This document shows, piece after piece, positions 2,877-20,828 of a DNA stretch of 21,606 bases. Within the stretch, counting starts at the first letter, position 1, and every line of letters starts with the position of its first letter. This DNA is from a virus. The stretch spans positions 1 to 21,606 of IMG/VR virus record IMGVR_UViG_3300017917_002000, one strand, 5' to 3'. Both the position numbers and the translations under genes were made by a program. The notes below the pieces were generated by a model, which saw only the letters and a list, made by a program, of their open reading frames with translations, did not search any database and was not told the origin of the DNA.

Positions 2877-3962
2877 ATGACAGTTGACTTGTATCACGAC
2901 ATTTACACCAGCGAAGCATTTACTAAAACACAATGCATATGGCATGAAAATGTCATGATGGATTTGTTCCGCAGCCAATTAATCAGTCTTGGTTATTCAC
3001 CTGCAAATGACAGTAGAAAAGTCTGGCGCCGTGGAGATCAAACAGTGGTGGTGTGTTTGGCAGATGACTTTGCCACATGTGGACCAATGGATCGTATACT
3101 GCCAATGGCACAGATGTTTGATTCAAAAACAGTGGTCATAACAGACAATCATGTTAACTCGCCCACACAATACCAGGTGCTACAGTTACCACATTCATAT
3201 TTTGGAATCTACAATTACAAACCCGCAATTGTTGACTGGAGCCCTGAACGCAGATTTAGTTTTGCTGTTAACAGATTGGACAACAAACGCCTGCGATTGT
3301 TTTTAGAACTGGTCACAAGAACCTTGTATCCAAACTCACGTGTGTTTGACCTGGAACGGGACTATGTTAATTTCAACTGCTGGCACTGGCAGAGCAGCAA
3401 CGACAGCCCTGAAGTTTTGCAACAAAATTTCAAGAATGAATTTGAATTTGTGCCCGATCAGTTAAAAAATCTGTATGCGCCTGCACTTGCACACATGACC
3501 CAACGCATGCCTTATCGCAATCACAGCAAAACGCTTGAACAACTGCATTCACATGTGTGGATGAACATGGTTGTGGAGACCTATTCTGGTGATACTGTGA
3601 TAGCACTCAGTGAAAAATTATTTAGAGCCTTGGTCACTCCGGTGCCATGGATCGTTTATGGTGGACGTCTCACCGTGGCGTATCTTCGTCAAATGGGGTT
3701 TGATGTCATGGATGATTTGATTGCGCACAATTATGATTACGCATTGGAAAAAGACAATGGTGAGTTTGGGGACAAGATGGTAGATTTTGTACGCGAAGGG
3801 CATGATGCTGTTGAACTGTTCCGAACCATGCCATGGGACCAACTGAGTCATCGCTGTCAAAAGGCCGCCCGTCACAATCAAAACTTGCTGGCACAAATGC
3901 AAGCCAATTGGCCCAGTGATTTTGCTCAGTGGTGGCCCCAAGTAATTGAAAAAATAAAATAA
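2877..3962 (+). CDS. GT10-like glycosyltransferase paralogue A
   Basis: A 361-residue protein. The recognisable part is in the C-terminal half: VVETYSGDTVIALSEK (Glu234, SEK at 245-247), then PWIVYGG and MGFDVMDDL (GFD at 274-276). This VxET...SEK...P(h)4G...GFD order resembles the nucleotide-sugar-binding half of family 10 (fucosyltransferase-type) GT-B enzymes and is shared with the genes at 6163-7116 and 16961-17983. The N-terminal half (acceptor side) is divergent. ATG 2877 is preferred; a GTG at 2859 is in frame but neither has a Shine-Dalgarno sequence. The stop overlaps the start of asnB as TAATG, so the two are translationally coupled. Sugar and acceptor are unknown. Confidence 0.7.
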   Translation: MTVDLYHDIYTSEAFTKTQCIWHENVMMDLFRSQLISLGYSPANDSRKVWRRGDQTVVVCLADDFATCGPMDRILPMAQMFDSKTVVITDNHVNSPTQYQVLQLPHSYFGIYNYKPAIVDWSPERRFSFAVNRLDNKRLRLFLELVTRTLYPNSRVFDLERDYVNFNCWHWQSSNDSPEVLQQNFKNEFEFVPDQLKNLYAPALAHMTQRMPYRNHSKTLEQLHSHVWMNMVVETYSGDTVIALSEKLFRALVTPVPWIVYGGRLTVAYLRQMGFDVMDDLIAHNYDYALEKDNGEFGDKMVDFVREGHDAVELFRTMPWDQLSHRCQKAARHNQNLLAQMQANWPSDFAQWWPQVIEKIK

Positions 3963-5497
3963 TGTGTGGTGTTTTGTTTGTGCAAAGTCAGCGGCCTCTT
4001 GGCCTTGATCTACACCTACAGGCAGTGCAAAAGATACATGCTCGTGGGCCAGATTTCACACACTATCAACACCACAACAACATTTTCATAGCGCAAACTG
4101 TGCTACACATCACAGGAGAGGATGAGTTTTATCATCGCCCACGCTCTGACTTCCTGGCCTACAACGGTGAAGTATACAATTATCGTTGGTTTGGCAAATA
4201 TAGCACAGACACCGAATTGGTTTATCGCACAGTGCGAGAACAAAACTACAAAAAATTTCCTTACTTTGAAGGACCTTGGGCTTGGATCTACACCAACTTT
4301 GAGTCAGTGAGATTTGCCACAGATCCACAAGGTGAACGCTGTCTGTATCGATATCAAGATGATAACATTTTGATTGTGAGCAGTGAAGTGTCGGCCATCT
4401 TGTGCTATGTGCAACCCAAAATTCGCACTCTGTCTTGGACTCAAAAACACTGGCCTGTCATACGCCACACACCTTATGAAGGCATTGAACGAATCACACC
4501 AGGTCAACTGTACACAGAGTCAGGAACTACTTTTAAAATAGACAGCATGTTTGATTGGACAAATAACGACCAGTCTATCAGTCAAGCAGAAGCGCAAGAA
4601 GAATTTGATTGGATATTTGACAAAGTAATGGCAGACATGCGGCCCACTGAACCCGCAGGCATCACCGTCAGTGGCGGTGTTGACAGTGGAATCATACTTG
4701 CAGCCATGCCGTTCGCTCAAGGCTTGTATACCACAGTATGTGAAGGCAAAGATACTGTGAGTAACCGAGTGGCGGAATTTCTAAATGAATTGCAACAACA
4801 ACGGCTCACTCTATTGCCAATGAGTGAACAAACTTGGGCACAGGAGTTGATTGACATTGTGCGTCATTCTCAAATGCCTGTACAAAGTTGGAGTTTTGTG
4901 GGCCAATGGCACATTGCTCGTCATTGCCGTCAACGCATACTGTTCACCGGCCTGGCTGCTGATGAACTGTTTGGTGGATATCCTGTGTATCAAAACATGG
5001 TGTTTGATACCACAACATCGGCCAGCCCATACAGTTGTTTTGATCCTGAAGACACAGACAGCCAAATTCTTTGGAACCAGTGTGTGTCATCATCCCAAGG
5101 ACATGCAGGTGCTGCCACACTGTTGATGGATTATCTTGTGCAGATCACAGCCGTGGATGCTCGTGGTGTGGACTCAATGACCATGGCACACGGAATAGAA
5201 CCACGTTCGCCGTTCATGCATCCGAAACTGATCAAGTTTGCTCTCAATTTGCCTTGGTCATTGAGACAGGGTAAACCATTGTTGCAAACAAGATTTTTAA
5301 AGAAATGGTCCAAGGAATTGCTGTTGCCTAAACAAGGATTTGCAGGACACTGCAATGACAGTTTGCCTTGGTTGGAAGTGGCTGTTCCTGCATCTGCTGA
5401 TCGATCCGCACAATGGAAACAGATTCAATCCACTACTTTTTTACAGTACTGTGGTATTGATTCCAGTCAATTACACAATCAAACCACTCAGGAGTGA
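3962..5497 (+). CDS. asnB: Asparagine synthetase, glutamine-hydrolysing (AsnB type)
   Basis: A 511-residue class II glutamine amidotransferase/synthetase. The N-terminal MCGVLF leaves Cys2 as the nucleophile after Met removal; HARGPDF (26-32) and YNGEVYNY (67-74) complete the glutaminase site. The synthetase half has the PP-loop SGGVDSG (237-243) for ATP pyrophosphate and TGLAADELFGGY (329-340), with EPRSPFMHPKL later. So both the ammonia-producing and the adenylating site look intact and the enzyme should amidate Asp, or a related carboxylate, using Gln and ATP. It starts inside the stop of the upstream glycosyltransferase (TAATG). Length is a little short of bacterial AsnB (about 550). In a glycosyltransferase island it could amidate a sugar carboxylate rather than free Asp; that is inference. 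Its last 65 bases overlap the convergent gene 5433-6140. Confidence 0.93.
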   Translation: MCGVLFVQSQRPLGLDLHLQAVQKIHARGPDFTHYQHHNNIFIAQTVLHITGEDEFYHRPRSDFLAYNGEVYNYRWFGKYSTDTELVYRTVREQNYKKFPYFEGPWAWIYTNFESVRFATDPQGERCLYRYQDDNILIVSSEVSAILCYVQPKIRTLSWTQKHWPVIRHTPYEGIERITPGQLYTESGTTFKIDSMFDWTNNDQSISQAEAQEEFDWIFDKVMADMRPTEPAGITVSGGVDSGIILAAMPFAQGLYTTVCEGKDTVSNRVAEFLNELQQQRLTLLPMSEQTWAQELIDIVRHSQMPVQSWSFVGQWHIARHCRQRILFTGLAADELFGGYPVYQNMVFDTTTSASPYSCFDPEDTDSQILWNQCVSSSQGHAGAATLLMDYLVQITAVDARGVDSMTMAHGIEPRSPFMHPKLIKFALNLPWSLRQGKPLLQTRFLKKWSKELLLPKQGFAGHCNDSLPWLEVAVPASADRSAQWKQIQSTTFLQYCGIDSSQLHNQTTQE

Positions 5498-6140
5498 TGG
5501 CAAGTTCTGTGTGTGCTCGAGCATAGGCCACAAATGCTTGTACACAATCTGATTCACTGGGTGTAACCCATCTGGTTTGATCACTGTTGTATTCGTACCA
5601 GTACATGCCAAATGGTGCTGTAGGATCTGTAAGTCTAAACGAGAACAACTGACCTGGCTTTGCTCGGCACAACATGGCAAATTCTTCCAGTGTATTAACT
5701 GGTTGTAAATGAGCATAATGGCCGGCTCTACCAATATGAGTGCTTATGAACGCAGGAACCGTTTTAATTTCTGGTATACGCTCTAAACATCGCAATCTAC
5801 TATCACCGGTGCCAGGTACCAAGATGCCATCAGTGTCTAACAGCAACCAAGGTTTTACAATGCCTTGTGCTCGAATATCATGTATCCAAAGATTCAATTT
5901 GACCAAGTTAGCAATGTCATAGTGATTGCGTGGATCGGCTGCAAATCCATCTATTCCATCATGTGTGAGCCATTCCATAGCCCAGCGACATAAATCACCA
6001 AGTCGCTGATTGGTAGGCAAGTTTTGAAATTCTGAGCAAGGATTCCAAAACAAACAATGTGCGCCTTGATGTAGGCTTTGCTTGACAGGATCAACATTGC
6101 CAGGCCAAAAGACTTCAATTAGAGGATTATTCCAGTACAT
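5433..6140 (-). CDS. 235-aa protein of unknown function in the glycosyltransferase island
   Basis: A 235-residue soluble protein starting MYWNNPLIEVFWPGNVDPVK, rich in Trp and Tyr, with a central stretch VKPWLLLDTDGILVPGTGDSR (residues about 95-115). The DTDGhLVPG segment looks superficially like a HAD-type DxDGT motif but the rest of that fold is not recognisable. Another block, WLTHDGIDGFAADPRNHYD, precedes it. ATG 6140 has no clear Shine-Dalgarno sequence. Its 3' end runs 65 bases into asnB on the other strand and its start is 22 bases from the divergent glycosyltransferase. I do not recognise a family. Confidence 0.75.
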   Translation of the reverse strand: MYWNNPLIEVFWPGNVDPVKQSLHQGAHCLFWNPCSEFQNLPTNQRLGDLCRWAMEWLTHDGIDGFAADPRNHYDIANLVKLNLWIHDIRAQGIVKPWLLLDTDGILVPGTGDSRLRCLERIPEIKTVPAFISTHIGRAGHYAHLQPVNTLEEFAMLCRAKPGQLFSFRLTDPTAPFGMYWYEYNSDQTRWVTPSESDCVQAFVAYARAHTELAITPEWFDCVIDWNQYHSTVKK

Positions 6141-6162
6141 AATTCTACTTAGTAAATACCCA

Positions 6163-7116
6163 ATGACATATGATCAATTGATGGCTCACACTTTCGAATC
6201 GCTGGGAGTTGACTCTATCATGGTTTACAATTGTTTTCAGCCGCCTTATGATAGCAATACCGGTTGGCCATTGAAGTTGCCAGACGTGACTTTTGGACCT
6301 AAAACCTTGCTGGTGTTGCACTTTCAAGATTTTGTTTCCATAGGGCAACCAGTCAAAGAACTTTTAACGGTTGAGGAAAAGTATGGAAAAAATTGCAATC
6401 AAATTATAGTTGCACACATGAGTCATGGGTTAGAACAGTGTTATCATGGTGCAATCCAATTGATAGAATACAACAATCACAATCTCTACACTTGTGAATC
6501 TATTGCACCACGCCAAGCAGAATGGCGACCATATTTTGAACAACCTAGATCGCTGGCCTGGCAGTGTTTGAATGGTAGAAAATGTCAACACAGACAGCGA
6601 GTAGCAAATGTGTTACGACATTGGCCAAATGGCATTTTGAGTTATGGCGACGAAATACTGCTTGATCAATGGGACTATTCTTCATATCGTGGCACTGAAA
6701 ATGATGAGAACTTTGTGCGCCTGGCACCGTTGTATGCTAGGTGTGCTGTGAACATTGTTACTGAAACTCAGTATGATGACAGGCCCGGAGTGATCAGTGA
6801 AAAAACTTTACTGGCAATGATTGCCGGGCAGATACCAATTGTGATTGGTCATCCAGGAGTAGTGCAAGGTTGTCGAGAGTTGGGGTTTGACATGTTTGAA
6901 GATCTTGTGGACACTTCGTATGATTGGTTGCCAAATGAGCAACGAGCGGAGGCTGCATTAGAACTTAATCAAGATTTGATATTGGGCAATATTGATCTCA
7001 AGCCATATCAAGAAAGATTGCAACGCCAACAAACATTTGTTCTTGATGCTTATCCTAAATGGATACGATCAAACTTTGTCCATCAGGCACAATCATGTGC
7101 GAACAAGATAGTTTAA
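6163..7116 (+). CDS. GT10-like glycosyltransferase paralogue B
   Basis: A 317-residue protein with the same C-terminal signature as the gene at 2877: NIVTETQYDDRPGVISEKT (Glu201, SEK 212-214), QIPIVIGHPG, and LGFDMFEDLVD (GFD 241-243). Upstream a CLNGRKCQHRQRV segment is the counterpart of CLNRGGRTHRVKF in paralogue C. It is likely a GT-B nucleotide-sugar transferase acting in the cytoplasm. The start at 6163 is preferred to in-frame codons upstream, which would overlap the divergent gene; no Shine-Dalgarno sequence is visible, only an AT-rich AGTAAATACC just upstream. The 3' end overlaps the convergent gene 7093-7458 by 24 bases. Confidence 0.7.
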   Translation: MTYDQLMAHTFESLGVDSIMVYNCFQPPYDSNTGWPLKLPDVTFGPKTLLVLHFQDFVSIGQPVKELLTVEEKYGKNCNQIIVAHMSHGLEQCYHGAIQLIEYNNHNLYTCESIAPRQAEWRPYFEQPRSLAWQCLNGRKCQHRQRVANVLRHWPNGILSYGDEILLDQWDYSSYRGTENDENFVRLAPLYARCAVNIVTETQYDDRPGVISEKTLLAMIAGQIPIVIGHPGVVQGCRELGFDMFEDLVDTSYDWLPNEQRAEAALELNQDLILGNIDLKPYQERLQRQQTFVLDAYPKWIRSNFVHQAQSCANKIV

Positions 7117-10508: not shown

Positions 10509-10723
10509 GTTAATTTTAATTTTAGAAATGTTGCCATCTTGGGATCTTTGATTTTTGCTTGTGTACAGACTCCACGGCCATTACCAAAAAACTGGTAGTT
10601 TGGGGTAACTTCCCAATCGTCACCGCCAATTCTATTATGCAGATAGAACTTGCGTGGTCCAATATGACGTTGGCATAGTTCAGCTACTTTTCGAAAGTCG
10701 CAGTCGAACTCTACTGTGATCAT
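10505..10723 (-). CDS. 72-aa phage hypothetical protein
   Basis: A 72-residue protein starting MITVEFDCDFRKVAELCQRH, with a HNRIGGDDWEVTPNY strand-turn and a C-terminal KDPKMATFLKLKLT. The pattern beta-alpha-beta-beta suggests a small ferredoxin-like fold. Both ends are ATGA overlaps with neighbours, so it is clearly in frame with the operon. Two cysteines (residues 8 and 17) and one later are present without a metal-binding spacing. Function unknown. Confidence 0.8.
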   Translation of the reverse strand: MITVEFDCDFRKVAELCQRHIGPRKFYLHNRIGGDDWEVTPNYQFFGNGRGVCTQAKIKDPKMATFLKLKLT

Positions 10724-11196
10724 CGCTGTAGCAATACTTTTTCTGTTTCAGCAGCCACCACACGTTTGCGGAGACTTGAGCTTGAGAACGAATGATCTCT
10801 TCTGTTGAACACAATCTCAATGCCACGATCGTAACACTCCTCACGACCAGTAAAATCTTTTTCAGCATATTCAATGCCTAGAATACGAACATCTAACGGC
10901 AATATTAACAGAAGGTCACAGAGATCTTGTTCGGTTTGGTACACAACAACTTCATCAACATAACGGCATGCAGAAAGCTGTATCTGTCGCTCCACAACAC
11001 TTTGTATCGGACGATTCTTAGTCTCAGGCCTATCGATAGTTGGGTCTGTTTGGAGCCCGGCGATGAGGTAGTCACAGTGATTCTTGGCTTCCGAAAGCAT
11101 AGCAATGTGGCCCGCGTGGAGCATATCAAAGGTTGAGAAAGTGATGCCAATTCGTTTGCCTTCAGATTTGAGTTGTTTGATGTGATTGAATATCAT
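10720..11196 (-). CDS. Nucleotidyltransferase of the glycerol-3-phosphate cytidylyltransferase (TagD) type
   Basis: A 158-residue cytidylyltransferase-like enzyme. GITFSTFDMLHAGHIAML (17-34) carries the HxGH nucleotide-binding motif; RPIQSVVER (62-70) followed by RYVDEVVVY matches the TagD substrate/CTP region, and SSSSLRKR (137-144) corresponds to the ISTT/IxxR loop that binds the triphosphate. It should join CTP (or ATP) to a phosphorylated small molecule such as glycerol- or sugar-phosphate. About 25 residues longer than Bacillus TagD, mostly an N-terminal helix. Adenylyltransferases such as RfaE/HldE C-domain are alternatives. ATGA overlaps at both ends. Confidence 0.85.
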   Translation of the reverse strand: MIFNHIKQLKSEGKRIGITFSTFDMLHAGHIAMLSEAKNHCDYLIAGLQTDPTIDRPETKNRPIQSVVERQIQLSACRYVDEVVVYQTEQDLCDLLLILPLDVRILGIEYAEKDFTGREECYDRGIEIVFNRRDHSFSSSSLRKRVVAAETEKVLLQR

Positions 11197-11441
11197 TCTT
11201 TGTATGTTGGGTTGGGAAATTCTAGTTCAAAGATGTGATAGGAGTTCGTGCCGCTTTCGGTATCTTTGAGCGTTTCTAAAGTTCTATTGTGTTCGGCCTC
11301 TTGCAAGGTCATGTACACACCTGTGCCAATATAACTGCCTGATGCTGCGGTGCCCACGGCGTTGATATTCAACCCAGTTTTTGTGGCCATTTTCATCAAA
11401 TGATAAAACTTCAAAGTTTTAGGCGGCTTGATTGGTTCCAT
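11193..11441 (-). CDS. 82-aa phage hypothetical protein
   Basis: An 82-residue protein starting MEPIKPPKTLKFYHLMKMATK with AVGTAASGSYIGTGVYMTLQEAEHNRT and ending FELEFPNPTYKE. The Gly/Ala/Ser-rich centre followed by a short helix and edge strand suggests a small beta-alpha domain. It starts within the stop of the upstream gene (TAATG) and ends in an ATGA overlap with the cytidylyltransferase gene. Function unknown; no cysteine or catalytic cluster is visible. Confidence 0.8.
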   Translation of the reverse strand: MEPIKPPKTLKFYHLMKMATKTGLNINAVGTAASGSYIGTGVYMTLQEAEHNRTLETLKDTESGTNSYHIFELEFPNPTYKE

Positions 11442-11875
11442 TAGCCTATCTCACTCCGGCCGTCACCAAGGTCACGCTTTTGCACATACATGCCAGAGTT
11501 TTTAATTGCTTGTTCTTGTTCCCATGTTTCCATCACAACATGACGGCAAACATTTTGAAACCAACGATCCACAATCTCTCCGTCAGTGTCTGTTGGCTTC
11601 ATCATGTATCCTGCTTTGATCAAGCGGGCCACAAAAATTTCATTCCAATCCAGTTCAAATGCACCCTGATGCAAGTTGTTGGGGTCTACATCTATACGCA
11701 ATACCTGTACCCAAGGTTCGCCCTTTTCTGTAGCAATCTGCTTTTCAGTCTTGGGTGGTTCTTCAACCGCTCGGCCCTTGACAACTGTGCCGGCTGCTTT
11801 AATGCTGTCAACTAAATCGTCAACTGAATCACGCTTTGCGACCTTTTGGGGTTTTTTCTTCAGCCAATCAAACAT
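11441..11875 (-). CDS. 144-aa phage hypothetical protein
   Basis: A 144-residue protein starting MFDWLKKKPQKVAKRDSVDD. After a basic, probably disordered N-terminus (to about residue 50), a folded part begins at GEPWVQVLRIDVDPNN and continues FELDWNEIFVARLIKAGY and VDRWFQNVCRHVVMETWEQE. I associate this with a family widespread in T4-like environmental phages, of unknown role. The ATG directly follows the queE stop (TAAATG), so translation is probably continuous with queE. Confidence 0.8.
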   Translation of the reverse strand: MFDWLKKKPQKVAKRDSVDDLVDSIKAAGTVVKGRAVEEPPKTEKQIATEKGEPWVQVLRIDVDPNNLHQGAFELDWNEIFVARLIKAGYMMKPTDTDGEIVDRWFQNVCRHVVMETWEQEQAIKNSGMYVQKRDLGDGRSEIG

Positions 11876-12730
11876 TTATTTCCCCCAGCCATTGCCCCAA
11901 AGATCCACATGCAATCTTGGACTATAGTTGTAACCACGAGCCAGTGCCCAGTCTGCCACATTTACTCGATTGCGTTCGTATGGAGTAACCACACCACCTT
12001 GTGGCATCACGTAAGTAACACCACGGAATCCTGCTTCACGATATGCAGCCACAGCACGATCAACTTCTTCAAAGTGTGCTTCACTATCAACAACAAACTT
12101 TAGATATACAGTTCCGTGATCTTGATATTCTGCAATAATTTTGGGTTTGATGGCATCCAACCACAATTCGCCTGATGCTGACAGTTTGGGACTTACTGAA
12201 AAAGTAATTTCATTGTGTCCTTGCAGCCAATAGTTCAAGAAGTCCTTGAACTTGGGTTGTAGCGTTTGAGTACCATTGGTTTCAAATGTGATGTTCTTCA
12301 AATCACTCATAGCGTCTTGACTCAGCAGTTCTTCATAACCACGCTGCCAACCTAGTAACGGTTCACCACCTGTGATTACAAGATGCACATCATTGCCGTT
12401 GTCCTGTTGCCAACGATGGTTGGGAGTGAGTGCCAGCATCTTTGCAATCAGTTCATCGTGTGCAAGTGTGTGACTTAGGTCCTTGAATGCAGGGTGCCAA
12501 CTGGCATACGAGTCGCATCCTGTGTTAACAAGAGGAAGATCTTCAAAAGTTTTGTAGAGATGGATGGATTTGGCTACCTCATCCGCCTCAGTGCTCTTAT
12601 GGCCGGGAGCGCAGCCAAATCCCGCGCATGTAAAGTTGCAGCCGAAGGTTCGTAAGAACACAGAAGGAACTCCAACAAATCGTCCTTCGCCCTGAGCAGA
12701 GTAAAATAGTTCACTGACTTTTAATTTCAT
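11876..12730 (-). CDS. queE: 7-carboxy-7-deazaguanine synthase (QueE, radical SAM)
   Basis: A 284-residue radical-SAM enzyme converting 6-carboxy-5,6,7,8-tetrahydropterin to 7-carboxy-7-deazaguanine. ELFYSAQGEGRFVGVPSVFLR (7-27) is the QueE signature, GCNFTC gives Cys31 and Cys35, ITGGEPLL (119-126) is the SAM-binding GGEP, and FETNGT follows. The cluster motif is unusual: next cysteines are Cys40 (CX3CX4C) and Cys72 in GCDSY, which looks like the WCDT of ordinary QueE displaced by an insertion of about 35 residues. ATG 12730 (MKLKVSE) forms ATGA with the methyltransferase stop. Longer than E. coli QueE (about 223). In the same strand as folE, queD and yhhQ-like genes. Confidence 0.93.
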   Translation of the reverse strand: MKLKVSELFYSAQGEGRFVGVPSVFLRTFGCNFTCAGFGCAPGHKSTEADEVAKSIHLYKTFEDLPLVNTGCDSYASWHPAFKDLSHTLAHDELIAKMLALTPNHRWQQDNGNDVHLVITGGEPLLGWQRGYEELLSQDAMSDLKNITFETNGTQTLQPKFKDFLNYWLQGHNEITFSVSPKLSASGELWLDAIKPKIIAEYQDHGTVYLKFVVDSEAHFEEVDRAVAAYREAGFRGVTYVMPQGGVVTPYERNRVNVADWALARGYNYSPRLHVDLWGNGWGK

Positions 12731-13503
12731 AGTTTTGTTGCTTTGACCAGTAGATGCCAACCCAAGTATTCTCTCACAGCCTGTCTATGGGAATCCGACA
12801 TGACTTCAAACCAAGGCTCTAATTCGTAGCGTCCTTGTTTGTATGCATCTACATTGTACATGAAACAGTGGTCTTGACGCAACCTCTCAATGTGCCAACT
12901 ATTGCTCAACAGGCGATATATTTCATCTTTTGAGAAGGCCTGTGCATAAGGGCATCCGGCTTGTGCTTCAAATTGATCCAGGCCCTTTTGGATCATGGCA
13001 TACTTCCAGGAGTTTTTGGCATATACCATAAAGCGAAACTCACCGCCGGGTACCAGTACTTCTTTGACATTTTCAATTATGGTATCAATACCTGGAAAGT
13101 GATGGATCACTCCGTAACTGTACACAAGATCAAACTGACCAAGATCACTAAAACTCTTACTGGCGTCTTTGACATGAAACTCTCCTTCTAGTTCAAGCAC
13201 TTTGAACCGATTTTGACTGAGTGCGATGCTTTGTTCACTTAGGTCAATGCCCACATATTCAGCACCGGCCTTGGCAAACTCTTCAGCGTCTGATCCAATG
13301 CCGCAGCCAATTTCTAACACACGCTTGCCGGCCCACAAGTGAAACCCCGCAAACTCAGGAATGTGTGGTTCCACACGATATCTGCGTTCGCTTACTTCAC
13401 GAAAGAACTCGGGTGTTCCGATGTCACTTTGGCCATGTTTGATATTGCATGGCTGTGTGTTCCAGTATCGACGGATTTTATCTTCTATATTACTTTGTGA
13501 CAT
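12727..13503 (-). CDS. Class I SAM-dependent methyltransferase
   Basis: A 258-residue methyltransferase. Motif I is VLEIGCGIGSDAEEFA (62-77), motif II ends in VGIDLSEQSI (84-93), and FDLVYSYGVIHHFP corresponds to motif post-II/IV; the C-terminal part is a family-specific region. The IHHFP segment and small-molecule-like layout resemble UbiE/phage sugar or lipid methyltransferases more than DNA methyltransferases, which would show DPPY or similar. ATG 13503 lies 14 bases inside the upstream glycosyltransferase gene; an extended start (to 13527) would overlap it more. Located between a GT-A gene and queE; substrate unknown. Confidence 0.9.
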   Translation of the reverse strand: MSQSNIEDKIRRYWNTQPCNIKHGQSDIGTPEFFREVSERRYRVEPHIPEFAGFHLWAGKRVLEIGCGIGSDAEEFAKAGAEYVGIDLSEQSIALSQNRFKVLELEGEFHVKDASKSFSDLGQFDLVYSYGVIHHFPGIDTIIENVKEVLVPGGEFRFMVYAKNSWKYAMIQKGLDQFEAQAGCPYAQAFSKDEIYRLLSNSWHIERLRQDHCFMYNVDAYKQGRYELEPWFEVMSDSHRQAVREYLGWHLLVKATKL

Positions 13504-14332: not shown

Positions 14333-14950
14333 TTAAGCCTCTTCGTGTGCTAGTTTTTTCTGCAACTGATTCAATAACAAACCATATGCAGGCAGGATAA
14401 CCACAAGACTCACAATCAGTTTGGTAATGCTTTGATTGGTAGCCACAATGTGCCAGTTGGCCGCCATGAACTCATTGGCGCCACCAGCAAATGCAGTGAA
14501 GAAGAACACATAGGTATCAAAGAATGTGCTCACAATCGAACTCAGTGCAGGAGCAATCCACCAGGTGGCATACTTCTCACGAATGTATTGAAACACATAC
14601 ACATCCAGCAAGTTGCTGATAAAGTAAGCACAGCCACTGCCAAGACCAATACGGAATGCCACTGAATCAGGAGCACCGCCCAGTTTGACCACTGCCATGC
14701 TAACTAGAATAGCAGGAATGAATGCCAACGCAATCACTGCTCGGCCAGTTTGCTTGCCCAACAGTCTCACAGTCAAGTCGGTCAACACAACCACTAATGG
14801 GAATGTAAACGCGGCAACTGCCAATGGCGCACCAAAAATTTCAAATTTAAACTGAACAAGATAATTGCTGATGGCAATGATAATGACATGTGCCAGCATG
14901 AGCTTGTAGGCCAATGCACGGTCAACACCATTTAAGATTCGATCTAACAT
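14333..14950 (-). CDS. yhhQ: VUT/YhhQ-family queuosine-precursor transporter
   Basis: A 205-residue integral membrane protein with five or six hydrophobic segments. FTFPLVVVLTDLTVRLLG (49-66), FISNLLDVYVFQYIREK and SSIVSTFFDTYVFFFTAF are the conserved loops of the YhhQ (DUF165) family, which imports preQ0/preQ1 in bacteria. A phage copy would feed 7-deazaguanine precursors to the cell or complement the FolE-QueD-QueE steps. ATG 14950 has AAGGA six bases upstream; the 17-base gap behind queD contains TATAAAAA, a poor late-promoter match. Confidence 0.9.
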   Translation of the reverse strand: MLDRILNGVDRALAYKLMLAHVIIIAISNYLVQFKFEIFGAPLAVAAFTFPLVVVLTDLTVRLLGKQTGRAVIALAFIPAILVSMAVVKLGGAPDSVAFRIGLGSGCAYFISNLLDVYVFQYIREKYATWWIAPALSSIVSTFFDTYVFFFTAFAGGANEFMAANWHIVATNQSITKLIVSLVVILPAYGLLLNQLQKKLAHEEA

Positions 14951-14967: not shown

Positions 14968-15471
14968 TTAAACGAACAGATCTTCCATCCACTCGCGATG
15001 GCCTTCTCTAAAAGCCATGTTGCTCTGTGTTTCGCGCACTTCCACACGATAGCACCAGAGACGCTCTGCTTCACCCGGGCCCCATAGATCCGGAATGTAA
15101 ACACCGTTCACATACTTGTACAGCATGTCTGCCAGACCTTCACAGCCCAGTCGTGGCAGGATAGTGAGTTTGGCCATATTCTTTTCTTGCAGTAACTTGA
15201 ACGTTTCAAGTTCAGGATCATCTTGTGCTACCAACAAGGTGTGATCAAATTGATCTTCGAGGGTGCGTTTGAGTTCTTTGAGCCCGCCATAATCTGCGGC
15301 CCAGTTTCGCACGTCCAGATCATCTGTGCCAAAGTAAAACTTCATTGAAAATGAGTAACCGTGAATCAGATTGCAGTGGCTGTCAGCACGCCATTGGCGG
15401 TATGCGCAGGGGAAACTATCGTGATACTCTTTGGTACTGGTGTACTTGTATTGTCGGGGTTGATTTGCCAT
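14968..15471 (-). CDS. queD: 6-carboxy-5,6,7,8-tetrahydropterin synthase-like (QueD/PTPS family)
   Basis: A 167-residue T-fold enzyme of the QueD/PTPS family. SHCNLIHGYSF (31-41) keeps the catalytic Cys33 and His37 but the usual third-ligand His is Tyr39; FPCAYRQW (20-27) stands where FxxAHR usually supplies the first zinc His, now Tyr24. ADYGGLKELK, FDHTLL and VEVRET are the remaining family blocks. So fold and Asp/His catalytic positions look intact but two of three zinc ligands are changed; Cys22 or His32 might take over. It would act between FolE and QueE. ATG 15471 has a perfect AGGAGG and a promoter of its own (15488-15516). Confidence 0.85.
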   Translation of the reverse strand: MANQPRQYKYTSTKEYHDSFPCAYRQWRADSHCNLIHGYSFSMKFYFGTDDLDVRNWAADYGGLKELKRTLEDQFDHTLLVAQDDPELETFKLLQEKNMAKLTILPRLGCEGLADMLYKYVNGVYIPDLWGPGEAERLWCYRVEVRETQSNMAFREGHREWMEDLFV

Positions 15472-16938: not shown

Positions 16939-16964
16939 TGAGATTTTGCCTTGTAAAAGTTCAT
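16935..16964 (-). other. Nine-codon relay mini-ORF
   Basis: ATG 16964 overlaps the TGA of the glycosyltransferase gene, GGAG lies four bases upstream, and the frame reads MNFYKAKSQ before a TGA that overlaps the ATG of the next gene. It has the form of a translational relay between two genes, not a protein with its own role. Confidence 0.45.
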
Positions 16965-17983
16965 GCAACTCCAACCCCGGGGCTAGGTGGACTCTGTGTA
17001 CGAGGTGCTGTGAATTGATATGGATCAATTTTGGGCATGCGTATCATAATACGATCTCTAAACTGATCACTGTGAAAATACTGTTTGTTACGTTCTACTC
17101 TGTCTTGCACTTGCCTGTAATCATCAAGTATAGTGCCGGAATCGATCCAACGCTTTACAAAACTGGCAATTTGCTCCAGTCTAGTATCTTCATTGCTTTC
17201 TTGGTCCCACGTTCGCCATGGCACAATATCTTCAAACATGTCAAACCCAATGTCAACATGAAATTGGTTGATTCCAACATTACCTACTAAAATTGGTATT
17301 TGCCTTGCTATAAAAGGTTTACAGCATTTTTCTGTAAGCGATGGAAATTCTGTTTGTGTTTCTGTAACCACATTCACAGCATATTGATCATATACTGGAT
17401 GTTCTACCCCCACATCATTGATAGGAGTGACGCCATCTGGATCAAATCCATCACCGGGTAAACGCCCAGTTTGCCAAGGCAACTCGTCTATGATAGGAAC
17501 CGTAAGGCACATGAGATTGGCATAGTCTTTCATTAAGTGATAGAACTTAACTCTGTGTGTGCGCCCACCTCTATTCAAACACATTACTCCATGAGTTTTT
17601 GTTCCAAGAGCATCAAACCTATCTCTGTACATGTGACTAAAATTATTTCTATTACTGTACATATACATCCATATTGGAAACCAATGCATGTCAGGTGCTG
17701 ATTGGTTATACCACTCAGTATACATTGAAGTCAAGGTAGTTAGGCCAATTAACTCGTTGGGTATTAACTTTGGAGGAAAAGCATTTTGCGAAACATCAAC
17801 CACTACATTTTTACAAGGATGTTTTTCTAACAGTGTGATTATTTTTTTGCTGTTGTATTTGGCATTTTTTTCATCAAAGTCACAGTGCCATATATCTAAG
17901 TCTGACACAATTACTATGTCTTGATAAAACCATTGCGATAGGTAGGGTTTGGCTGCACTGCCACCATAGATGTTGTATATCAT
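16961..17983 (-). CDS. GT10-like glycosyltransferase paralogue C
   Basis: A 340-residue protein sharing the signature of the genes at 2877 and 6163: AVNVVTETQTEFPSLTEK (Glu208, TEK 217-219), RQIPILVGNVG, and IGFDMFEDIVP (GFD near 246). A CLNRGGRTHRVKFYHLM block about 55-70 residues earlier is the counterpart of CLNGRKCQHRQRV in paralogue B. It is probably a GT-B nucleotide-sugar transferase; donor and acceptor unknown. The Pro/Ser-rich C-terminus (TQSPPSPGVGVA) is likely a tail. ATG 17983 overlaps the folE stop as ATGA. The same-strand neighbour folE contrasts with the plus-strand position of the other two copies. Confidence 0.7.
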   Translation of the reverse strand: MIYNIYGGSAAKPYLSQWFYQDIVIVSDLDIWHCDFDEKNAKYNSKKIITLLEKHPCKNVVVDVSQNAFPPKLIPNELIGLTTLTSMYTEWYNQSAPDMHWFPIWMYMYSNRNNFSHMYRDRFDALGTKTHGVMCLNRGGRTHRVKFYHLMKDYANLMCLTVPIIDELPWQTGRLPGDGFDPDGVTPINDVGVEHPVYDQYAVNVVTETQTEFPSLTEKCCKPFIARQIPILVGNVGINQFHVDIGFDMFEDIVPWRTWDQESNEDTRLEQIASFVKRWIDSGTILDDYRQVQDRVERNKQYFHSDQFRDRIMIRMPKIDPYQFTAPRTQSPPSPGVGVA

Positions 17984-18672
17984 CGCGGCGCAAAGTCCTG
18001 TTGCAGTTTGATGTTGTCAAAGAATTCCTTCTTCACGCCCGGGTCAGTCTTGAATGCACCGTGTAGTACTGTGGTCTGGGTGAGACTACTATGGGCCATA
18101 ATACCGCGATTCTCACAACATCCGTGGGTAGCTTGAATATAAACGCCAACGTCTCGGGAGCCAGTCGCCGTTTCAATTTCTCTTGCAATATCCATACATA
18201 GTTCTTCTTGGAGAGTGCCCCGTCTAGCACACCACTGGGCGATACGTGTGTATTTCGATAGACCAATAAGTTTGGGACCAGCAATGATTCCAATATAAGC
18301 CACACCCGACACAGGCTGGTGATGATGTGAGCACATGCTTTTAAGCTCCGAACGCACAACCAACATGCCCTCGTACTTTCCGTCCGTATCATTTGGAAAC
18401 GCCGTTGCATTAGGACTCTCCTCATACCGGCCAGCCATGATTTCATTGAAGTACATTTTTGCAAGACGCCTTGCTGTGCCTTGGGAGTTGGGGTCATTTT
18501 CTCTGTCTATTAGTAACACATCAAGCACTTGTTCAAATGCTACGGTGGCTTCGTCGATCAAATTCTCTTTGGTTTCTTCATCAACATATTCACTGATGTT
18601 GTCGCCTGCCCAGAATCTTTTACCTTCTGCCCTCATCTGCTGACGAAGGACTTGTGATAAGTGTTTTTCCAA
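17980..18672 (-). CDS. folE: GTP cyclohydrolase I
   Basis: A 230-residue enzyme converting GTP to 7,8-dihydroneopterin triphosphate, first step of both folate and 7-deazaguanine synthesis. SMCSHHHQPVSG (112-123) gives zinc Cys114 and His117, HGCCENRG (183-190) gives the third zinc ligand Cys185, and LIGLSKYTRIAQWCARR (135-151) is the conserved pocket. ARRLAKMYFNEI and the N-terminal helix are also family-like. I accept TTG at 18672 as the start because GGAG lies eight bases upstream and the leader then fits the strong promoter 18711-18739; the next ATG would remove 12 residues. In this context the product probably goes to QueD. Confidence 0.93.
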   Translation of the reverse strand: MEKHLSQVLRQQMRAEGKRFWAGDNISEYVDEETKENLIDEATVAFEQVLDVLLIDRENDPNSQGTARRLAKMYFNEIMAGRYEESPNATAFPNDTDGKYEGMLVVRSELKSMCSHHHQPVSGVAYIGIIAGPKLIGLSKYTRIAQWCARRGTLQEELCMDIAREIETATGSRDVGVYIQATHGCCENRGIMAHSSLTQTTVLHGAFKTDPGVKKEFFDNIKLQQDFAPR

Positions 18673-19294: not shown

Positions 19295-19891
19295 TCAATC
19301 TACGATTTTTATTTCGCGTAAATCCGGATATTGCACATGCACAGGTTTGGGATTCAGTTCCTTGACACCTTGCAGTAGTGCGATACCTTGCACTGCATCT
19401 TCTATGCTGGGGCGGTAATGATAGCCAACATTAAAAGTTTTTTGATTTTGCCACGGTGCAACAGTTAAGTCTCTGCCATCGTATCGTTGACGCAATATTG
19501 TTTCATATGCCTTTTTGTCATCCAATAAAATAGCGCCACCGTGACCAATAGCCAATGGCTTGCTGTAACCAAAACTCAAACATTGCATGGTTCCTGCCCG
19601 GTACATATCCTTTTCCAAACGTCTTGCACTATCCCAGATTCTAGTCAGGCCGAATGGGTATTCGCCTACCCATTGTTTAGGTGAATGATTTTCATAACTG
19701 TACTTGATACCCAGTTTGTGCATGAGCATGGGAATACTTAGATAGGTAAACGGAGTCATAATAACTTCTTGTACTTGATCATATCGCAAGCACAACTCTA
19801 TTGCATGTGTACAGCAATCAGTCATGATTGCATAAGGTGCTCCTGTGAACTCTGCCAGTTCTTCTTCAAACTTTTTTATCTTGTCAAACAT
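19295..19891 (-). CDS. Compact DegT/DnrJ/StrS-type PLP aminotransferase
   Basis: A 198-residue protein recognisable as a sugar aminotransferase: PYAIMTDCCTHAIELCL (19-35) is the cofactor-phosphate loop, VIMTPFTYLSIPMLMHKLG follows, IWDSARRLEK holds Asp87 for the pyridine nitrogen, LSFGYSKPLAIGHGGAI (105-121) holds the PLP lysine Lys111, and GYHYRPSIEDAVQGIALLQ is the GYNxR block. Normal family members have about 370 residues; here about 70 residues of the middle and most of the C-terminal domain are missing, yet key cofactor residues remain. ATG 19891 (weak GGA) is preferred; ATG 19906 is in frame. The 5' end overlaps galE by 8 bases. Confidence 0.8.
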   Translation of the reverse strand: MFDKIKKFEEELAEFTGAPYAIMTDCCTHAIELCLRYDQVQEVIMTPFTYLSIPMLMHKLGIKYSYENHSPKQWVGEYPFGLTRIWDSARRLEKDMYRAGTMQCLSFGYSKPLAIGHGGAILLDDKKAYETILRQRYDGRDLTVAPWQNQKTFNVGYHYRPSIEDAVQGIALLQGVKELNPKPVHVQYPDLREIKIVD

Positions 19892-20828
19892 ACCAATTCC
19901 ATGCATGGCGTATCATATCTTCTAGGCTGTATTGACGCCATGCACCAGCAACTTTATTGAACTTGTCAGAACTTGCAGTGAGTTCTGGCGGATCGCCAGC
20001 ACGGCGAGTCTCCACACCAATATAAGGCATCTTGCCGATGATAGTTCTTGCCCGCTCCATTACCTGCTTGACACTGAATCCTTGATTTGATCCAAGGTTA
20101 TAGATGCCCGAAGGAATTTTATGATACAAGGCCAAGGCGTGAGCCCTTGCAATATCAGCCACATGCACATAATCACGAACGCAAGTTCCGTCTTGTGTGG
20201 GATAGTCGTCACCATATATTCTAAACTGCTCATCATCTCTCGTGGCCTCTAATAACTTGGCAATTAGATGTGTGGCACCAGGCTCTTGTCCGTGCCTGCC
20301 CTTGGGGTCAGCGCCGCAAGCATTGAAGTAGCGAAAACTCACATAATCAAGTCCATATGCCCGATGATAACTTTCCAGCATCATGTCAATCATCAACTTG
20401 CTCTCGCCGTATGGACTGACTGGTTCTTTTGGATCCACTTCATGAATGGGATTCATGATAGGTTCACCATATGTGGCAGCACTAGAACTAAAAACAAATC
20501 TGCAACGAGGCATGCTGTTCTTGACAATGTCCAACAGTTTCAGCGTCTTGGCCACATTGTTGTTATAGTATTCGCTAGGGTTCTTTACACTTGGACCCAC
20601 AAGACTGGTGCCAGCACAGTGAATGATAGCATCAGGTAGTTTTGCAATAGTCCAACTCAATGCAATATCGGATGCAAAGTCTTGTGTGAGCCATCCATTA
20701 CAAATGCCGTCTAAATGTTTAGGCGGCTGTCTGCGGTCAATGCCATACACTTCATGGCCGGCATCTTTCAATGTCAGCACAGTTTGTCCGCCAATGTATC
20801 CGGCTGAGCCGGTAACAATCACAATCAT
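19884..20828 (-). CDS. galE: UDP-glucose 4-epimerase-like (GalE, extended SDR)
   Basis: A 314-residue Rossmann-fold epimerase. VTGSAGYIGG (5-14) binds NAD, Asp31 binds the ribose, FSSSAATYGE (113-122) has the catalytic Ser, and YGESK (140-144) is the Tyr/Lys pair. FNACGADPKGRHGQEPGATHL and RDYVHVADIARAH are typical of GalE, which interconverts UDP-glucose and UDP-galactose (or the N-acetyl forms). It supplies a sugar donor for the nearby glycosyltransferases. ATG 20828 forms ATGA with the upstream stop. Slightly shorter than E. coli GalE (338). Confidence 0.95.
   Translation of the reverse strand: MIVIVTGSAGYIGGQTVLTLKDAGHEVYGIDRRQPPKHLDGICNGWLTQDFASDIALSWTIAKLPDAIIHCAGTSLVGPSVKNPSEYYNNNVAKTLKLLDIVKNSMPRCRFVFSSSAATYGEPIMNPIHEVDPKEPVSPYGESKLMIDMMLESYHRAYGLDYVSFRYFNACGADPKGRHGQEPGATHLIAKLLEATRDDEQFRIYGDDYPTQDGTCVRDYVHVADIARAHALALYHKIPSGIYNLGSNQGFSVKQVMERARTIIGKMPYIGVETRRAGDPPELTASSDKFNKVAGAWRQYSLEDMIRHAWNWYV

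Follow-up and report, generated by a model that had tools for sequence, protein, structure and literature searches.

Among the closest described counterparts of the phage locus examined here is WbpS (PGN_1234) of Porphyromonas gingivalis, a homologue of the asparagine synthetase AsnB whose deletion abolishes a uronamide while the acid remains (PMC7468200). The locus likewise carries an AsnB homologue associated with genes for sugar transfer. However, WbpS is a cellular, non-phage enzyme whose substrate is a diacetamido glucuronic acid, and its likeness to the phage protein lies in family membership and sugar-pathway context. A second point of comparison is cyanophage S-SCSM1, in which an annotated asparagine synthase lies within a cluster of glycosyltransferase (GT) and methyltransferase genes. 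Both this protein and the ASNS of S-SCSM2R are phage-encoded AsnB homologues with V or I at position 49. However, they are ~25–29% identical to the protein described here, and no homologue of its neighbor, gC, was found in the phage collection searched. Because an AsnB homologue among phage GT genes is thus already on record, the claim of the sequence-only reading that this arrangement would be a new use in a phage is overstated. Rather, the novelty resides in the altered enzyme, its gC partner, and the conserved cassette.

Judging from sequence comparisons, we give about even chances to the proposal that the locus is a glycan-decoration cassette whose AsnB relative would amidate a sugar acid on a surface decoration made by the phage. 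The locus offers a testable case of phage-made modified sugars, in which an amide-forming enzyme and its partner gene are fixed while the GTs differ among phages. If the proposal is true, it bears on how surface decorations diversify for receptor use, superinfection exclusion, or recognition.

Layout of the Island

The island resides in IMG/VR record IMGVR_UViG_3300017917_002000, whose 21,606 bases were analyzed in full and are called the window hereafter. Open reading frame (ORF) calls place four genes at positions 2877–7116, in the order GT (plus strand), asnB (plus), gC (minus), and second GT (plus), and the remaining conserved genes of the window all lie on the minus strand. This agrees with the strands and ORFs assigned by the sequence-only reading, which had described a plus-strand island in a minus-strand window. 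The first gene, gA (2877–3962, plus strand), codes for a GT-like protein of 361 amino acids and, when relatives are compared, ranks with the most divergent in its neighborhood. The sequence TAATG at 3960–3964 couples its stop codon to the start codon of asnB (gB; 3962–5497, plus strand), as had been reported. The product of asnB is an AsnB-family amidotransferase of 511 amino acids that comprises class II glutaminase and PP-loop synthetase domains.

Convergent with asnB is gC (5433–6140, minus strand; 235 amino acids), and the overlap of their 3′ ends, also recognized earlier, measures 65 bases. The starts of gC and gD are divergent, with 22 bases between them. The latter gene (6163–7116, plus strand) codes for a second GT-like protein, begins with a conserved ATG at 6163, and occupies a slot that is variable in relatives. 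A third GT-like paralogue of the gA/gD family is located beyond the island (16961–17983, minus strand) and exhibits ~31–33% identity to gD homologues. Adjoining the island is an ORF at 2167–2538 that by eye resembles GIY-YIG proteins and keeps its position in nearly all relatives. No match to the island was obtained by a DNA-level search against annotated phages or by an Rfam scan, and a promoter and terminator scan, with 15 promoter-like sites versus 9.7 expected, was uninformative.

Conservation of Gene Order and Variability of the GT Slots

All four island proteins have homologues in relatives. A search with gC yielded 103 loci, of which 80 were retained. Six of these end at a contig edge before the position of asnB, leaving 74 informative viral loci, and an asnB homologue adjoins gC in 72 of them. 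The two exceptions (L068 and L093) keep gA-type and gC genes but are missing asnB. Many gC loci are near-copies of one virus, such that 42 gC and 32 AsnB sequences are distinct below 93% identity. AsnB homologues at 81–84% identity, as well as more distant ones, are found at the equivalent position of other viral contigs. The synteny comparison that had been proposed for this locus therefore reveals a gene order kept in dozens of viral contigs, and we conclude that the island is real, conserved, and functionally coherent. Its carriers are a widespread group of uncultured large phages represented in IMG/VR. One related record that carries the island (L204; record G003, 148 kb) encodes a T4-type major capsid protein (Gp23, E = 1.1e-97).

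The junction between the upstream GT gene and asnB is also maintained. In 31 of 36 distinct loci, the stop codon of the GT gene shares one base with the start codon of asnB, and in the remaining five the two codons lie one base apart. The one-base overlap is retained down to 43–44% AsnB identity and with GTs of only 35–40% identity. This coupling also spans loci whose AsnB and GT proteins are 43–50% and 35–49% identical, respectively, to those of the window. Its constancy argues against the possibility that the GTs glycosylate phage DNA at hydroxymethyl pyrimidines, with asnB as a mere neighbor. Although one related record encodes a homologue of the T4-type major capsid protein, which would be in keeping with that role, the thymidylate synthase/dCMP hydroxymethylase family was unmatched in the window and in 13 related records, mostly fragments. 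We regard DNA glycosylation as highly improbable.

Among close relatives, median dN/dS values are 0.12 for asnB and 0.08 for gC, and both genes are under purifying selection. Median identities to the window proteins across 27 close loci are 82% for AsnB, 83% for gC, and 92% for an exonuclease, compared to 60% for gA, while gD was found in only 10 of these loci. The slots beside gC and the gene called g08 are filled in relatives by other GTs or by proteins resembling radical SAM enzymes or 2-oxoglutarate (2OG) oxygenases. Given the low identity or patchy presence of the GTs and the high identity of AsnB and gC, the GT genes vary whereas the asnB–gC pair is stable.

Several genes in these slots can be specified. 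Radical SAM-like proteins are encoded between g08 and g09 in L001 (4513–5508), L004 (5039–6064), and L032 (5659–6684), the last assigned by similarity to L004. A 2OG-oxygenase-like ORF of ~200 amino acids is present between gC and asnB in L075 (3642–4235, minus strand; Pfam 0.0028) and L059 (8641–9273, minus strand). In L115, a gene at 10830–11870 that adjoins gA/gD-type GTs appears by eye to be amidinotransferase-like and has no Pfam match.

GT-Like Proteins and gC

The sequence-only reading had assigned both GTs to the GT10 type. This assignment stands in part, because local profile–profile similarity to GT10 proteins is observed over one motif (E..x..TEK..A...P...G, about 53 columns), but neither gA, gD, nor any of 32 homologues matches PF00852, the GT10 family. 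In comparisons with a GT10 set, broad gD-containing sets gave probabilities of 46–63%, the gD core set 14–16%, and gA alone 0.3%, with controls below 1%. The island proteins may thus share this motif with GT10 fucosyltransferases, but they differ in having no Pfam match and in a likeness limited to those columns. A profile comparison indicates that gA and gD are homologous to each other (97.2% probability). Based on these alignments, “GT-like” is a better label than “GT10.”

Searches with gA, gD, and gC against phage, PHROG, and Pfam collections produced no usable family except ParB_N (PF02195) for gC, which is matched by 15 of 42 gC homologues (best E = 5.5e-4). In addition, the gC profile retrieves Noc at E = 0.0046. 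An AlphaFold model of gC reaches a pLDDT of 91 when built from 42 sequences, compared to 40 from nine near-identical ones, and Foldseek places ParB, Noc, and sulfiredoxin (Srx) on top of the matches to this model (probability up to 1.00 over ~52 residues, E = 0.015–0.03, TM-score ~0.2). Sequence profiles and model together show that gC has a ParB/sulfiredoxin-like core and is otherwise unmatched. This core of ~50 residues has a GxxxR motif resembling those that bind nucleotides, as in ParB, Noc, Srx, and free serine kinase. However, the remainder of gC is without a match, and the TM-score of ~0.2 is to whole proteins. Members of the ParB/Srx fold bind or use nucleotides, and by analogy it is possible that gC serves as a kinase or as a nucleotide-dependent partner.

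Altered Residues in the AsnB-Family Protein

The asnB product matches PF00733 (5.5e-23) and PF13537 (6.6e-7), whereas its score of 147 bits against TIGR01536 falls under the curated cut-off of 267 bits. A profile search of contigs with a shallow AsnB alignment gave no match. In an alignment to E. coli AsnB, each of the 32 distinct island sequences retains the catalytic residues C1, R30, N74, G75, E76, D98, D238, D351, E352, and K449. The island enzymes therefore share with AsnB and ASNS the domain order, the Cys nucleophile, the NGE sequence, D98, the SGGxDS motif, D351/E352, and K449. However, two residues, R49 and E348, are replaced in every island copy.

The first of these, R49, binds the carboxylate of glutamine in E. 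coli AsnB, and its human counterpart, Arg-48, belongs to the glutamine network (PMC6748925). This position is Val in 32 of 32 distinct island sequences (V47 in the window, codon 4100–4102, plus strand), whereas all 77 of the other bacterial homologues have Arg; Val is also found in the SAR11 protein L119 and in cyanophage S-SCSM2R. The second, E348, is a residue of the aspartyl-AMP pocket that corresponds to human E364 and aligns with L331 of the window protein (codon 4952–4954, plus strand). It is replaced by L, I, V, A, or Q in all 32 island sequences, whereas 66 members of the 77-sequence comparison set have E or D. This set was chosen by the pattern ADELFGGY, which biases it but leaves positions 348 and 49 unfixed.

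Human ASNS variants E364A and E364Q are inactive when supplied with aspartate, ATP, and ammonium (PMC6748925), and the loss of the acid at position 348 argues against ordinary aspartate amidation by the island enzymes. It is therefore very unlikely that the gene encodes an ordinary asparagine synthetase that supplies asparagine for phage protein synthesis. Such a role would fit the family-level match, the conservation of SGGxDS, D351, E352, and K449, and the presence of asparagine synthase in some giant viruses. However, the matching human variants are dead, TIGR01536 is matched below its cut-off, and the position of the protein in the tree presented below is separate from that of E. coli AsnB. 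When a phage gene is annotated as asparagine synthetase, these residues should be checked before the annotation is read as asparagine supply.

Because R49 is Val in every copy, the island enzyme cannot be called an intact glutamine-dependent synthetase, as had been done, and glutamine may not be the nitrogen donor. For the same reason, we still consider an amide-bond ligase, in which the glutaminase chemistry would be altered or dispensable and the carboxylate of a glycan or peptide would be joined to an amino acid or other amino compound. The family members beta-lactam synthetase and lasso cyclases, which are among the matches, do such chemistry, and some relatives have radical SAM, 2OG-oxygenase-like, and possibly amidinotransferase-like genes nearby (the last by eye only). 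However, the glutaminase residues C1, N74, G75, E76, and D98 are invariant in the 32 copies, which would be unexpected if ammonia release were unused, and we judge this ligase role unlikely.

Phylogeny of the AsnB Homologues

In a quick tree, all island AsnB sequences form one clade (SH-aLRT 100). This clade adjoins L119, L120, and S-SCSM2R and lies apart from E. coli AsnB, with joining branches supported at SH-aLRT 92–94. S-SCSM2R sits on a long branch and S-SCSM1 on a distant long one. The cellular copies nearest the phage clade come from SAR11 and Vicinamibacterales loci with sugar genes. For example, L119 (SAR11) belongs to a sugar-nucleotide cluster with members of the CTP_transf_3, dTDP-sugar isomerase, nucleotidyltransferase, and dehydratase families, and the L120 locus carries a Gfo/Idh/MocA gene as well as CTP_transf_3, a family in which some enzymes activate sugar acids. 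Thus, the phylogeny suggested as a check groups the island enzymes with copies from sugar-gene loci rather than with E. coli AsnB. With the gene order also conserved, neither of the two outcomes that the sequence-only reading named as refuting was observed, and its interpretation is supported in part.

This placement bears on another candidate acceptor. The window encodes QueE (11876–12760), a YhhQ-type transporter (14333–14950), QueD (14968–15471), and FolE (17980–18672), and searches of the window and seven related records gave no QueC or TGT match above cut-off. The AsnB homologue might accordingly stand in for QueC through its glutaminase (Gat) and PP-loop domains, amidating the QueE product 7-carboxy-7-deazaguanine to a 7-amido base for DNA modification. 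Gat-QueC proteins have the same broad domain logic (PMC6884629), but a QueC domain was not matched anywhere in the window. Moreover, L093 has queE without asnB, the 148-kb record G003 (possibly incomplete) has asnB without a queE match, and the AsnB homologue is coupled to a GT gene rather than to que genes, with its closest relatives among sugar genes. We consider this role quite unlikely, and rank both deazaguanine amidation and DNA glycosylation low. Three related records contain a QueC-like match, which by eye appears to be an NAD synthetase and was rejected as QueC.

Proposed Amidation of a Sugar Acid

The genetic linkage of asnB to sugar-transfer genes, seen in gene order and GT coupling, together with the changed recognition residues, makes amidation of a sugar acid probable compared to asparagine synthesis. 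In the pathway we propose, the GT-like enzymes would transfer sugars to an acceptor that may be a phage virion protein or a host surface glycan. The AsnB-family enzyme, whose translation is coupled to that of one GT, would activate a carboxylate with ATP by AMP-forming PP-loop chemistry and convert it to an amide, presumably using ammonia from its class II glutaminase domain. By analogy with WbpS in Porphyromonas, the likeliest acceptor would be a sugar carboxylate, yielding a uronamide. The ParB/Srx-fold protein gC may have a part in this pathway, perhaps by binding nucleotides.

A more specific version of this proposal seems doubtful to us. The island enzymes may form a phage amidotransferase subfamily in which both the donor (R49V) and acceptor (E348 loss) pockets are rebuilt. 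Such enzymes would take nitrogen from a source other than free glutamine and, with the ParB/Srx-fold partner, amidate or ligate a glycan carboxylate, producing a phage-specific surface decoration that is varied by swaps of the flanking GTs.

Sugar Genes in the Window and in Related Records

Sugar acids could be generated by other genes of these phages. A search of the window and 13 relatives detected the UDP-glucose/GDP-mannose dehydrogenase family (PF00984) in 4 of these 14 records, among which are the largest two, at 215 and 343 kb. The best NCBIfam models for these proteins are nucleotide sugar dehydrogenase and UDP-glucose 6-dehydrogenase, both below curated cut-offs, and Pfam agrees on the family. 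It is possible that this UDP-glucose-dehydrogenase-like enzyme is the source of the sugar carboxylate in relatives. No UDP-glucose dehydrogenase was found in the window record, a 21.6-kb fragment, and no CTP_transf_3 member in the window or the 13 related records.

In the related phage record L256 (1093–3198), a UDP-glucose-dehydrogenase-like gene adjoins an ORF that by eye is NAD-synthetase-like. The window carries a DegT/DnrJ aminotransferase-like ORF (19295–19906; 203 amino acids) that matches DegT over two segments and is possibly a truncated gene, adjoined by a GalE-like epimerase gene (19884–20828). A cytidylyltransferase-like protein is encoded at 10720–11196, and its best PHROG is heptose-phosphate adenylyltransferase (4.6e-32).
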